Source: Crossiella sp. CA-258035
GTDB lineage: Bacteria > Actinomycetota > Actinomycetes > Mycobacteriales > Pseudonocardiaceae
Reading direction: 5' to 3'
DNA length: 64,000 nucleotides
Assembly: GCF_030064675.1 (NCBI RefSeq)
Contig: NZ_CP116413.1
Span: 963,001-1,027,000, forward strand
Position numbers and translations under genes: made by a program. Below the pieces are notes generated by a model, which was not told the DNA's origin, made no database searches, and saw nothing but the letters and a program-made list of their open reading frames with translations. This document shows positions 13,362 to 43,395 of the stretch, piece after piece; the stretch's first letter is position 1; every line of letters starts with the position of its first letter.

Positions 13362-14240
13362 GTGGCCGAGCAGAAGCAGTACGGAGATCGCCTCGCCGTC
13401 GTCACCGTGACCTACTCGCCCGGCAAGACGCTGGCGCGTTTCCTGGACACCCTGGACGAGGCGAGCACCCAGTCCCCGCTCAAGGTCGTGCTGGCCGACA
13501 ACGGCTCGGTGGACGGCGCGCCGGAGCAGGCCGCCGCCGAGCGCGAGCACGTCCAGCTCCTGGTCATCGGCGAGAACGTCGGCTACGGCACCGCGGCCAA
13601 CCGGGGCGTGGTCCAGCTCCCGGACGAGTACGGCTGGGTCGTGGTCGCCAATCCGGACCTGGAGTGGGGCCCCGGCTCCCTGGACACCCTCCTGGAGGCC
13701 GCCAAGCGCTGGCCGCGAGCAGGCGCCTTCGGCCCCCTCATCCGCGAACCCAACGGCGAGGTCTACCCCTCAGCCCGCCTGGTCCCGTCCCTGGGCCGGG
13801 GCATCGGCCACGCCCTGTTCGGCAAGATCTGGCCCGGCAACCCCTGGACCAAGGCCTACCGCCAGGAAGACCGCGCCGTCGGCGAACGCCCGGCAGGCTG
13901 GCTCTCCGGCTCCTGCCTCCTGCTCCGCCGGGAAGCCTTCGACTCCATCCAGGGCTTCGACCCCAGGTACTTCATGTTCTTCGAGGACGTGGACCTGGGC
14001 GACCGGCTGGGCAAGGCGGGCTGGCTGAACGTGTACGTGCCGACGGCCGAGGTGATGCACATCGGCGGCGTCTCCACGGCGAAGGTCAAGCCGAAGATGC
14101 TCGCGGCACACCACGACAGCGCGTATCGATTCCTGGCCGACCGGAACCCGGGGCTGGTGAACGCGCCACTGCGGTTGGCGATCAAGGCGGGATTGGCGTT
14201 GCGGCTGAAGCTGGAGACCCGGGGCGCGACGAAGTCATAA
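13362..14240 (+). CDS. wbbL: Rhamnosyltransferase WbbL-like (GT2)
   Basis: 292 residues, close to the length of mycobacterial WbbL. In that family the enzyme adds rhamnose from dTDP-rhamnose to decaprenyl-PP-GlcNAc, making the linker between peptidoglycan and arabinogalactan at the inner membrane face. Features: LAVVTVTYSPGKTLARFL, LADNGSVDGAPE, VANPDLEWGPG (metal site), GWLSGSCLLLRREAF and FFEDVDLGDRLGKAGW. In M. tuberculosis wbbL is next to the mannose-1-P guanylyltransferase gene, as it nearly is here, but rmlD is absent upstream. Identity rests on motifs plus synteny. Followed by the 684-bp hairpin-rich gap. Confidence 0.85.
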   Translation: MAEQKQYGDRLAVVTVTYSPGKTLARFLDTLDEASTQSPLKVVLADNGSVDGAPEQAAAEREHVQLLVIGENVGYGTAANRGVVQLPDEYGWVVVANPDLEWGPGSLDTLLEAAKRWPRAGAFGPLIREPNGEVYPSARLVPSLGRGIGHALFGKIWPGNPWTKAYRQEDRAVGERPAGWLSGSCLLLRREAFDSIQGFDPRYFMFFEDVDLGDRLGKAGWLNVYVPTAEVMHIGGVSTAKVKPKMLAAHHDSAYRFLADRNPGLVNAPLRLAIKAGLALRLKLETRGATKS

Positions 14241-14294
14241 CGGCACGCGAGGGTTGAGCTTTTGCCGTTGCTTTTGATCGCAAACGGAGCGGCC

Positions 14295-14450
14295 GGTCTG
14301 GGTGGTTCTGCTTCGACGGCCTGGAGAAGACACACCACATCCCGTCAAGCGCCCCACCAACGCCGCCAACCGCACCGGAGGCTGGGACCGGGGCGCTTGA
14401 CGGGATGTGGTTTGGTTTCGTAAGGCCGTCGAAGCAGAACCACCCAGACC
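14295..14450. repeat. Giant bipartite hairpin A
   Basis: Perfect inverted repeats in two tiers. The outer stem is 28 bp (14295-14322 with 14423-14450) and ends inward in ACGGCCT. It is followed by a symmetric internal loop of 12 and 12 nt, then an inner stem of 21 perfect pairs (14335-14355 with 14390-14410) beginning CCACATCCC, and a 34-nt apical loop. Hairpin C has the same plan in inverted orientation. It lies 54 bp after the wbbL stop in a 684-bp stretch (14241-14924) with no supportable gene. It could terminate wbbL transcription, but the length and bipartite design far exceed a normal terminator. Confidence 0.85.
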
Positions 14451-14545
14451 CCGCGGAACCACTCACGCTGCCGCAGGTGCGCCAACACAAACTGGCACTG
14501 GTCTGCAACTCATCTCGCTGCCTTTGATCTTCCCCCTGCTTTGAT

Positions 14546-14621
14546 GGTCTGCCCGTCCGGCGAGGACATTCTTTTCGCTTTTGAAAAACCAAAAGAAGTG
14601 TCCTCGCCGGACGGGCAGACC
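14546..14621. repeat. Giant hairpin B
   Basis: A 23-bp perfect stem (14546-14568 with 14599-14621) continues, after one bulged G at 14598, into TTCTTTT/AAAAGAA (14569-14575 with 14591-14597) with a 15-nt loop. It sits between hairpins A and C. Weaker mirror-image flanks extend the symmetry: CAACACAAAC at 14483-14492 and GTTTGTGTTG at 14674-14683, plus partly matching sequence between them and the core, so about 200 bp form one imperfect dyad. Confidence 0.82.
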
Positions 14622-14706
14622 CCCGGAGGGGTGGGACAAGTCAAAAGCCGGGACGAGCAGATTGCGGGGCGGGGTTTGTGTTGCCGACGAGCGAACCAGC
14701 GTGCTC

Positions 14707-14868
14707 GCGGGCCTCTTGTCTTCTCCGCACGGCCTTCCGACAGCGAACCACATCCCAGCGAGCAGCCGCCGTCACGCTGGTCGGCGTTGGCGGCGGTTGC
14801 TGTGAGCGTCTGCTCGCTGGGATGCGGTGCGCGGTCTCCAGGCCGTACGGAGAAGACAAGAGGCCCGC
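14707..14868. repeat. Giant bipartite hairpin C, inverted relative of hairpin A
   Basis: The outer stem is 21 perfect pairs (14707-14727 with 14848-14868), one mismatch, then ACGGCCT/AGGCCGT (14729-14735 with 14840-14846). A symmetric 12/12-nt internal loop follows (14736-14747, 14828-14839). The inner stem is 17 of 18 pairs (14748-14765 with 14810-14827) beginning CCACATCCC. Its reverse complement aligns with hairpin A at the ACGGCCT junction, at eight of 12 positions in each internal-loop strand and at the CCACATCCC start, but the stems differ in sequence. This is the pattern expected of a structure under selection, or of elements that exchange arms. Confidence 0.83.
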
Positions 14869-14924
14869 TTTGTGGGTTTTCACCCCGAGCTGCCCCGAGC
14901 TGGCCCCGGGCCTTGCCCGTCGCT

Positions 14925-15455
14925 CTACGAGCGCCGGTCAGGCCACTGGGGTTGCTGGGCCTGTTGCTGCTGATGCTGTTGCTGCTGGGGATGCCCGCCG
15001 TTCTGCGTCCCGGGCTGCTGCTGCCCCTGTCCCTGCCCTTGCATCGGCTGGGTGGGTTGCGCGTGCTGCATCGGCTGGGTCGGCTGGGGGTGCTGACCCA
15101 TCGGCTGCGTTGGCTGCGCGTGCTGCATGGGCTGGGTCGGCTGGTGGCCGTGCGGGGGGCGGGGCTGGGGCGGCATGGTCTGCTGGCCGTGACCTTGCGC
15201 ACCCGGGTGCATGTGTAGGGATTGCCCGTGTTGTGGCCCATACCCTGCCTGCATGGCCTGGACCGCCTCCGGTGACAGGATCACGGTTGAGTCCGGATCG
15301 GCGTGGTGCGGGTCGTTCGCCGCGACCACGATCCGGGGTATCTGTACCGTGTTGGCCGCATCCATCGGCGAGGTGGCGTCGTCTGGTGTGACGACGAAGG
15401 AGCCACGCGCCCTGGCACGGGCTAGCAGCTCATCGGCCCGTTCGCGGGGATCCAT
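14925..15455 (-). CDS. Short protein with Gln/Pro/His-rich repeat tail
   Basis: 176 residues from ATG 15455. Residues 1-95 are ordinary (MDPRERADELLARARARGSF, then NTVQIPRIVVAANDPHHADP and STVILSPEAVQAMQAGYG). The rest is low complexity: repeats of QPTQPMQHA and QPTQPMQGQGQ, then poly-Q/H stretches. No signal peptide or membrane helix is seen. A VxVSPE-like core before a disordered Gln-rich tail may be a scaffold or phase-separating segment, but there is no known family to name. It stands alone between the hairpin region and the divergent guanylyltransferase gene. The repeat tail is prone to length changes. Confidence 0.7.
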   Translation of the reverse strand: MDPRERADELLARARARGSFVVTPDDATSPMDAANTVQIPRIVVAANDPHHADPDSTVILSPEAVQAMQAGYGPQHGQSLHMHPGAQGHGQQTMPPQPRPPHGHQPTQPMQHAQPTQPMGQHPQPTQPMQHAQPTQPMQGQGQGQQQPGTQNGGHPQQQQHQQQQAQQPQWPDRRS

Positions 15456-25000: not shown

Positions 25001-25321
25001 GGCGGCCTCCCGGCCGGAGGAGTCGAGTTCACCTCGGTCGAGGCCCGGCCGCCGGAGATCGCCGTCGCGGTCAGCGCCGGACCGCTGGGCCGGGTGCTGG
25101 TGGTCGCCGCCGAGGACGAGCGCGGGTGGGTGGCCACCGTCGACGGCCGCGAGGTCCCGCTGGCCAGGGCCTACGGCCACCTGGTCGCGGTCGCCCTGCC
25201 GGAAACCGCCGCCGAGATCCGCGTCACAGTCCCGGCCACGCTGCCCACCCTGCTCCTACTGGCCCAGGCCGCGATCGCCCTGTTCACCGCGCTGACCGCG
25301 ATCCCCAGCCGCCGCCGCTGA
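22010..25321 (+). CDS. Giant membrane glycosyltransferase (GT2 domain plus polytopic region)
   Basis: Up to 1103 residues. The first 290 form a GT2 domain: VLAVIVCHEGAEWLRPLLSA, VDTGSTDATARLL, WLLHDDSAPEPD (metal site) and CDDIDLGWRANLAG. A basic linker with Pro/Arg runs to about residue 470. Then come ten or more hydrophobic helices (LLLSPVLFLVLGLAVLALAT and on to about residue 850), with a soluble C-terminal domain and a last helix at the end. Large GT2 proteins next to whiB2 are usual in actinobacteria and are thought to move or add sugars at the membrane. The GTG start lies inside a 14-bp inverted repeat, and no ribosome site is visible, so the true start may be somewhat downstream. Confidence 0.85.
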   Translation: MVEAPPTRGTSLPHPQPGTAPVLAVIVCHEGAEWLRPLLSALRHQTVRPRHILAVDTGSTDATARLLAAAATGPDRLLDGVLTEAPGTGFGVAVAKAVEAATERWGDPGRWIWLLHDDSAPEPDCLPALLSTADLAPSAAILGPLAVDWADPRLVVQGGLSLDASGHTQTGISGAELAHGGGFDQSRDVLAVGTAGALVRREVWEALGGLDPALPLGCDDIDLGWRANLAGHLVLLVPAARIRHVRAAERDQRPVHAVPSLARARRAHGLRTFLVNTSGPSFALGLPRLAVLCLLRALGFLLLRRTTSAGAELAALGYLFSGRAGLLAARRSRAATRTVPPSEIRGLFTSRLTRLRNAVQGGLLHLLRNRVRADVSLGRIPASPVPEWTEPGAPQRRPGPPELPAGALGPSRRRDAARRLGPAGLRRPAGPVVVEVAATAALQRRPSPRPRPSPVPRGTPRPAELVLVEIDRGRVLRELLLSPVLFLVLGLAVLALATQWARLGGDLAGGRLLPAGSLAETWAGYVATWQPVAGGSIAPAPTTAGVLAVLGSVFGGPSAVVSVLLLGDLPLAGLTAYLATRRLRAPRAVRAAVAAGYALLPIATAATAQGRLDVVVAHVLLPPVLAGVAAILWPRRPDIGWLSVTCATALALAVLGAFHPLPHLLVLLAALTGFVLVPGEGRRRVAALFTLVLLPLALQLPWPAQVLRHPSVLLHGTGAPVRETRANPLDLLALYPGGPGALPWLGLVAVLAALTAAVLRPRPLMLPGLGLFVLGAAAAIATGLIEVTPVNGGPPSTGWTGAPLLLAACGLAWIVLTAALPGPPVAIPARLLAGTGAATLAALAASTLLVGPDGPLKSAPPVLVNSLLAELRETGTAVLEVGAFGQPSRQTTGRPARFGDDEVLAAPGAAQRINDTATALRAGTSEAVRAALQSAGASGIRFLLLPDQGTATRVRAAAPDLVVADATATDGRPVLRLPTARGPVTLLAGEAALRARTGGLPAGGVEFTSVEARPPEIAVAVSAGPLGRVLVVAAEDERGWVATVDGREVPLARAYGHLVAVALPETAAEIRVTVPATLPTLLLLAQAAIALFTALTAIPSRRR

Positions 25322-25475
25322 CCCGAGTGTTGGCCGAAGTCGTACGCCGTGTTGGCCGATCTCGTACCCGGTCTTGGCCGAACTTGGACGGCAAGCGACG
25401 CCACTGGCGTGCGGAAACGGCCAACACGGCGTCCAGATCGGCCAACACGGCGTACGAGATCGGCCAACACTCGGG
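25322..25475. repeat. Giant hairpin E filling a convergent intergenic space
   Basis: Arms of 41 nt (25322-25362 and 25435-25475) pair over 16 bp, a 2-nt mismatch and 23 bp. GTGTTGGCCGA is repeated directly in the left arm with a 22-base period (25327, 25349), and a decayed third copy lies in the loop; the right arm holds the complements. A small apical hairpin ACGCC-act-GGCGT sits at 25399-25411. The element begins one base after the stop of the giant glycosyltransferase and ends five bases before the stop of the minus-strand metallopeptidase gene, so it can serve both as terminator, though its structure is far larger than needed. Confidence 0.85.
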
Positions 25476-25480
25476 TGGGG

Positions 25481-43201: not shown

Positions 43202-43395
43202 CACATTGGCGCGCTCCGCGCGCGGGATTTTTTCGCTCCTTATGTCGTGCGTTCGTGACCCCGGCACACGCGAAGCAAGCTTCGGAGTGCCGGGGTCACG
43301 AACGCACGACGCGAAAAAATCAAGCCCGTCGCTGGTCAAAGGGCCCGGCGTGTCGCTGGCGCGCCACGCCTCCCAACGCGGCAAGTTGTCGCTGG
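43202..43395 (+). repeat. Structured interspersed repeat, copy 2 (pairs with 1907-2098)
   Basis: Begins 10 bases after the tmk stop in the same orientation. A small hairpin (GCGCGC tcc GCGCGC, 43209-43223) and six T are followed by a perfect 24-bp stem (43244-43267 with 43287-43310) capped by the same 18-base loop as copy 1, then six A and the same tcgctgg-rich tail. The small hairpin also differs from copy 1 by a compensatory T-A to C-G change. The remaining gap to 43487 shows no gene. Confidence 0.82.

Follow-up and report, generated by a model that had tools for sequence, protein, structure and literature searches.

A dispersed giant-hairpin repeat of Crossiella that may act as a two-way RNA element at gene ends

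Between two converging genes of Crossiella sp. CA-258035 lies a stretch of 684 bases that was read as three giant hairpins, two of them related and inverted. What kind of element is this, and is it the DNA or a transcript that folds? We analyzed it within a window of 64,000 nucleotides (the whole stretch of DNA under study) and compared it with its copies in the same chromosome and in related genomes. The explanation that we favor, with about even confidence, is that of a giant, REPIN-like repeat that is dispersed and does not code for protein, and that works as RNA in both directions at the 3' ends of genes.

Three hairpins in one intergenic gap

The gap (14241..14924, 684 bases, assigned to neither strand) lies entirely between two converging genes, and the repeat unit within it spans approximately 14248-14886. 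As the sequence-only reading had stated, it is gene-free, filling the interval between a plus-strand gene that ends at 14240 and a minus-strand ORF that ends at 14925. The left neighbor (13362..14240, plus strand) is a family-2 glycosyltransferase gene (Pfam PF00535, E 4.7e-13). The right neighbor (14925..15455, minus strand, convergent, start codon picked by eye) is a Gln-rich ORF that had no match in a Pfam search and is kept beside the glycosyltransferase in another Crossiella genome, G002. An Rfam search at the gathering score gave no match at the element, the only match in the window being a tRNA at 2103-2176.

Inverted repeats and folding both bore out the three giant hairpins. With DNA parameters, the folding energy of the 684 bases is -250.5 kcal/mol; 20 dinucleotide shuffles averaged -144.2 (sd 6.4), and none of them was as low (z = -16.6). 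Hairpin A (14295..14450, plus strand, type I), delineated by its inverted repeat and by folding, pairs 14295-14355 with 14390-14450 (61-nt arms, 90% complementary). Hairpin C (14707..14868, minus strand, core 138 nt) pairs 14707-14769 with 14806-14868 (63-nt arms, 87% complementary). Hairpin B (14546..14621, no strand assigned) was likewise defined by inverted repeat and folding; its arms are TCTGCCCGTCCGGCGAGGAC and GTCCTCGCCGGACGGGCAGA, the 5' arm being a 20-mer found across Pseudonocardiaceae, and the inverted repeat around it covers 14531-14582/14585-14636 (52 nt, 77% complementary).

The two-tier plan proposed for A and C also held: each has an outer stem running to ACGGCCT, a 12/12 internal loop and an inner stem starting from CCACATCCC, and when reversed C is read against A, letter by letter, 8 of 12 positions are identical in each internal-loop strand. 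The left end of the unit (14248..14294, plus strand, GCGAGGGTTGAGCTTTTGCC...) is conserved in type I copies and follows closely on a TAA stop codon at 14238-14240. The left linker, between A and B (14451..14545, plus strand), is pyrimidine-rich near B, and part of it can base-pair with the right linker (14622..14706, plus strand), which separates B from C and is purine-rich near B. The right end (14869..14886, plus strand) is GCCCGCTTTGTGGGTTTTCACCCC-like and conserved in both type I and type II copies. The element as a whole is an imperfect palindrome, query positions 67-616 matching themselves on the opposite strand at 68%.

A repeat family with a conserved fold

The element is dispersed, with copies in at least 26 places in the CA-258035 chromosome (one contig, 9.17 Mb, dnaA at 1.3 kb). 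This number is a lower bound because scoring covered 40 of the 104 initial candidates, and a B arm at 1684109 lies outside the 26 copies counted. Eight copies are type I (one truncated), including the one in the window, 13 are type II (one truncated) and 5 are partial. Type II copies have a different A hairpin and the same B and C as type I; the inner parts of their A and C are reverse complements of each other, and some sequence blocks are common to several copies.

A first search of relatives matched 6 of 31 genomes: CA-258035 itself, Crossiella G001-G003, and members of two other genera. Copies are many in G001 and G002 and few in G003. The other Crossiella genomes have subfamilies of their own: CA-258035 copies are alike, and those of G002 are ~71-79% identical to them (39 G002 loci were studied, compared to 72 matches to an 18-mer counted in that genome). 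In a named genome collection, the B-hairpin pattern was found in 19 stretches, 18 from Crossiella and one from Streptomyces, the latter appearing by eye to be coding and unrelated. The 20-mer CTGCCCGTCCGGCGAGGACA, allowing at most one mismatch, occurred in 52 of 150 sampled Pseudonocardiaceae genomes and 23 of 46 genera; some of these matches are single and coding-looking, and the reversed 20-mer, used as a control, was absent from the matches listed for the 150 genomes.

Several other genera have a single-hairpin unit with an outer stem CATCCCGTCG(A/C)CCT, followed by a linker and CATCCCGGAG-CCTGCCCGTCCGGCGAGGACA, and without a second B arm. Among 38 such loci (37 with the B motif), both hairpin arms were found in 27 (23 after deduplication), and 10 yielded no pair of arms. 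The hairpin core measures 122-132 nt (exceptions 107 and 165) and lies 54-67 nt from the B motif (exception 31). From its layout, the Crossiella element looks like an inverted dimer of this single-hairpin unit; the alignment of reversed C with A would follow from this. At four loci (L126 and L234-L236; G157, g38), hairpin A is absent and GGTCATCCCG directly precedes the B motif; since this 10-mer also starts hairpin A elsewhere, the 10-mer may form direct repeats between which A is deleted.

Hairpin lengths vary little among copies. Of 19 CA-258035 C hairpins found by pattern, 18 have a core of 138 nt and one has a core of 137 nt; in G002 the C core measures 138-141 nt. The A core is 140 nt in all 15 CA-258035 type II hairpins (137-142 in G002) and 150-152 nt in all 8 of type I. 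Internal loops and single mispairs are retained at fixed places across copies, and the intact Crossiella copies that we aligned repeat the bipartite folds, internal loops included. Thirty-six C hairpins (18 from CA-258035 and 18 from G002, 29 of them distinct) align without gaps. Under a plain nested structure, their covariation score was 0.194 on the plus strand (0.059 shuffled) and 0.263 on the minus strand (0.109 shuffled); none of 500 shuffles reached the observed score on either strand, and sliding the partners destroyed the signal. Further pair types were in excess on the minus strand (32 versus 27.8 in shuffles) and not on the plus strand (19 versus 19.9), and 97.8% of C cells are paired as minus-strand RNA compared to 87.6% as plus-strand RNA. 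The covariation anticipated for the stems is thus present, and the inner stems show compensatory changes. Together, the recurrent bipartite folds and the compensatory changes suggest that the fold is recognized or functional.

Gene-end placement, turnover and the search for a mover

To describe placement we used 62 copies, 23 from CA-258035 and 39 from G002; the fragments L032-L034 (3 of the 26 CA-258035 copies) were excluded from the placement, replication and isolated-mismatch counts. Thirty-four copies lie between convergent, 24 between tandem and 4 between divergent genes, compared to 19, 55 and 35, respectively, of 109 other gene pairs at the same loci with at least 60 bases between genes. 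The convergent excess (Fisher p 8e-7) and the divergent deficit (Fisher p 6e-5) were obtained with a simple, crude gene caller, which scored the window copy as tandem although its next ORF is convergent. Convergent or unidirectional gaps, the kind that also houses REP and BIME sequences, host 58 of the 62 copies. The window copy begins right after its TAA, and the distance to the stop codon ranges from 0 to >1000 bases across copies. Such placement could merely show that insertions are tolerated at gene ends.

That tolerance is part of an alternative that we consider unlikely, in which the element is selfish, REPIN-like mobile DNA whose single-stranded hairpins are recognized in trans by a transposase. 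The subfamilies amplified within each genome, the existence of monomer and inverted-dimer forms, and the retention of single mispairs are all consistent with it, as is the co-orientation of copies with replication in CA-258035 (20 of 23, p 0.0005) and G002 (26 of 39, p 0.05). However, three g38 genomes lack any orientation bias (33 co-oriented and 38 anti-oriented among the first places listed for each genome), and we rejected a lagging-strand insertion bias that is seen in two genomes and absent from these three. The expected enzyme did not appear either: the Y1 HUH transposase profile PF01797 had no match in CA-258035 or G003, and six PF01797 loci of other genomes held no element 17-mer, one of them (L060) having a single 10-mer of the outer stem. 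On these grounds an HUH/RAYT mover of the PF01797 type was discarded. The suggested association with tyrosine HUH nucleases found no support with this profile, and of the proposal that a protein recognizes the fold, the part concerning recognition or function of the fold is supported and the part concerning folded single-stranded DNA and an HUH nuclease is not.

Copies also appear to stay in place, which again argues against selfish spread. In SN42 (G099), a strain of the same species, all 23 element loci have flanks matching CA-258035 loci at ~92-97% identity, so that no recent insertion was seen; these shared sites cover 21 of the 26 CA-258035 copies, plus L031, and L013, L025, L032 and L034 are without a matching SN42 element locus. 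At the site of the window copy SN42 carries both halves of the element; they lie at contig ends, and the inner stem differs in the 5' arm of A. At the same junction in G002 the element is absent and another giant palindrome starts at the stop codon, its units being like the GTGTTGGCCG / CGGCCAACAC of a second palindrome family (see below); G003 has a short gap without long hairpins of such kind. The sequence-only reading had offered absence of the hairpins, or unpaired drift in their arms, in orthologous regions of close relatives as grounds for abandoning its interpretation: all 23 SN42 element loci are at sites shared with CA-258035, and the element is missing from the site of the window copy in G002 and G003. 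A test for MITE-like insertion found no clean empty site at the junction of the window copy in G002, G003 or SN42.

Other candidate movers fared no better. An autonomous, gene-bearing version was rejected, the largest shared ORF cluster comprising 6 ORFs from 4 of 25 CA-258035 loci, and searches of plasmid and phage collections returned no element match at E 1e-5. An IS30 family transposase gene (NF033563, E 4e-86) occupies L183 7005-8240 in SN42 (G099:C13), at a contig end; it was dismissed as the mover because it sits within the B stem of that copy, a later hit. The copies may have been spread by some enzyme and by gene conversion. Two SN42 loci have unusual structures. At L183, the right flank of CA-258035 L017 is joined to L013-like sequence (at one contig end only), as if L013 and L017, inverted copies ~15 kb apart, had recombined in SN42. 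At L182 3462-3640, the left part of an A hairpin is joined to the right part of a C hairpin, an internally deleted copy that SN42 has in common with L031.

Wobble polarity, known elements and neighboring palindromes

In a folded strand, the transition that keeps a wobble pair appears as G·T, and the same change read on the other strand appears as A·C. A stem under selection as RNA tolerates G·T-type wobbles and loses A·C. We counted both types in variable columns with a Watson-Crick majority, using length classes of at least three sequences and the outer 54 columns. Hairpin A has 14 G·T columns versus 1 A·C (5:1 in CA-258035 plus SN42, 9:0 in G002 plus G001), and hairpin C has the reverse, 15 A·C versus 1 G·T (10:0 and 5:1, respectively). 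Wobble cells in these columns number 81:1 in A (G·T:A·C) and 57:1 in C (A·C:G·T), counts that are not fully independent because the inner A and C are inverted copies and cells and columns share ancestry. Isolated mismatches follow the same pattern, with G·T:A·C ratios in A of 22:0 in SN42, 18:0 in G002, 8:1 in CA-258035 type II and 3:1 in type I, and A·C:G·T ratios in C of 55:2 in CA-258035, 24:0 in SN42, 65:2 in G002 and 12:0 in G001. Other genera showed a weak trend in A (15 G·T versus 8 A·C) and no clear signal in hairpins right of B (5:4). This wobble polarity of variable stem columns, G·T in A and A·C in C, is a new observation.

The opposite polarities imply that wobbles are tolerated in A when it is RNA transcribed from the left and in C when it is RNA transcribed from the right, and are at odds with both hairpins folding from one DNA strand, as the selfish reading would have it. 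The data therefore favor hairpins that form in RNA and are encountered by transcripts of either direction over one-strand folded DNA; most simply, selection would act at A on RNA coming from the left and at C on RNA coming from the right. Total folding energy agrees with this two-sided reading for C, which is more stable as minus-strand RNA in 67 of 67 hairpins, and not for A, which has no net strand preference (the plus strand is more stable in 25 of 56).

Action at the level of DNA seems to us improbable; here a nucleoid, replication or topoisomerase protein would bind cruciforms or hairpins of DNA, and the fold would be kept for that binding. The element is palindromic as DNA, its lengths are fixed and its internal loops are kept across copies, and BIMEs are thought to affect supercoiling (PMC3733652, excerpt). 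A cruciform, however, should tolerate G·T and A·C alike on both strands, which is not what we observed; the single symmetric hairpin of the second palindrome family does give a balanced ratio (3:4 in 8 hairpins).

More improbable still is an element without function, whose palindromes are kept by gene conversion and quasi-palindrome repair and whose polarity comes from transcription-linked mutation bias: the reverse-complementary inner stems of type II, the blocks common to copies and the altered inner stem of the SN42 ortholog would suit it, yet repair would restore pairing in the internal loops and at single mispairs, and both are kept. Base changes in the linkers (counts not corrected for composition: left, C>T 6 and G>A 2; right, G>A 8 and C>T 2) run in the same direction as those in the stems, so mutation could account for some of the polarity, but the biases of 6:2 and 8:2 are weaker than those of the stem cells. 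A transcription-linked mutation bias would, moreover, itself imply transcription from both sides.

On the preferred two-way RNA reading, the transcript leaving the left gene would fold hairpin A just past its stop codon, and the transcript leaving the converging right gene would fold hairpin C. Such very stable stems could halt RNA polymerase, hold up 3' exonucleases or serve as targets for RNase III cleavage, with the outcome that neither message would continue into the opposite gene. Closing or protecting the 3' ends of messages at converging genes is the likeliest role; transcription through the hairpins, and termination or protection by them, are what we infer from the sequence. A bolder version, possible but doubtful, is that these repeats form a new class of mobile insulators working in both directions at gene ends. 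Their giant hairpins would hardly vary in length, each being tuned to the transcript from its own side, and the repeats would have spread through Pseudonocardiaceae with no RAYT and be exchangeable for unrelated giant palindromes at the same convergent junction.

By analogy, the element looks like a scaled-up REPIN or BIME at gene ends. REP and BIME sequences are palindromic intergenic repeats, single or in inverted doublets, located mostly in convergent or unidirectional gaps; they plausibly act as RNA, and REPs are 20-40 bp long (PMC3733652, excerpt). A REPIN consists of two REPs in inverted orientation, separated by a spacer that forms a hairpin, and shows compensatory changes (PMC3116915, excerpt). 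Like REPINs, our element has two hairpin units inverted around a spacer, A aligning with reversed C, and its monomer (other genera) and inverted dimer (Crossiella) parallel single and doublet REPs. In contrast, its hairpins are 138-156 nt, and its host genome has no RAYT-type (PF01797) match. The conserved 20-mer CTGCCCGTCCGGCGAGGACA may stand where REPs have a GTAG or CGTC tag. A further likeness, by description, is to the Correia repeat enclosed elements (NEMIS) of Neisseria, which are non-autonomous palindromic repeats. Those are much smaller and have short terminal inverted repeats. They can act in RNA through RNase III (PMC2649163, excerpt).

High-G+C actinomycetes have few classical intrinsic terminators. 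A promoter and terminator scan produced nothing above chance (1 terminator versus 0.8 expected, and not at A, B or C). The window copy does resemble an intrinsic terminator in placing a G+C-rich hairpin soon after a stop codon, and the wobble pattern of the element looks like that of a terminator: in Bacillus cereus terminators, 89.5% of inferred AU-GC switches pass via GU and 10.5% via AC, and bidirectional terminators of convergent genes likewise prefer G·U-type intermediates (PMC5381666, excerpt). Unlike intrinsic terminators, the element belongs to a repeat family, has far longer stems and lacks a U-tract, so it is not a classical one; unlike bidirectional terminators, which share one hairpin, it has one per direction. 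Because it departs from REPINs in size and in lacking a RAYT-type match, and from terminators in lacking the U-tract, we place it in neither class. The claim that this form is undescribed agrees with the absence of an Rfam match and, more weakly, with a literature search of open-access papers that found no description; a word search of the accessible text of the Saccharothrix and Kutzneria genome papers found no matching repeat. A repeat family giving one giant RNA hairpin per direction would make the separation of converging genes testable, and asking which strand tolerates G·U may tell RNA from DNA palindromes by sequence alone.

The second palindrome family, with units GTGTTGGCCG / CGGCCAACAC, occupies at least 40 places in the CA-258035 genome among the candidates scored. 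Its units occur within 350 bp of 36 of 39 G002 elements, 3 of 23 CA-258035 elements and 7 of 811 background windows, and one copy, at 25321-25476 of the window, fills a convergent gap from the stop codon onward. Two other long foldbacks, at 1979-2074 and 43226-43321, have common outer arms (TTTTTTCGC.../...GCGAAAAAA) and are perhaps a third palindrome family.
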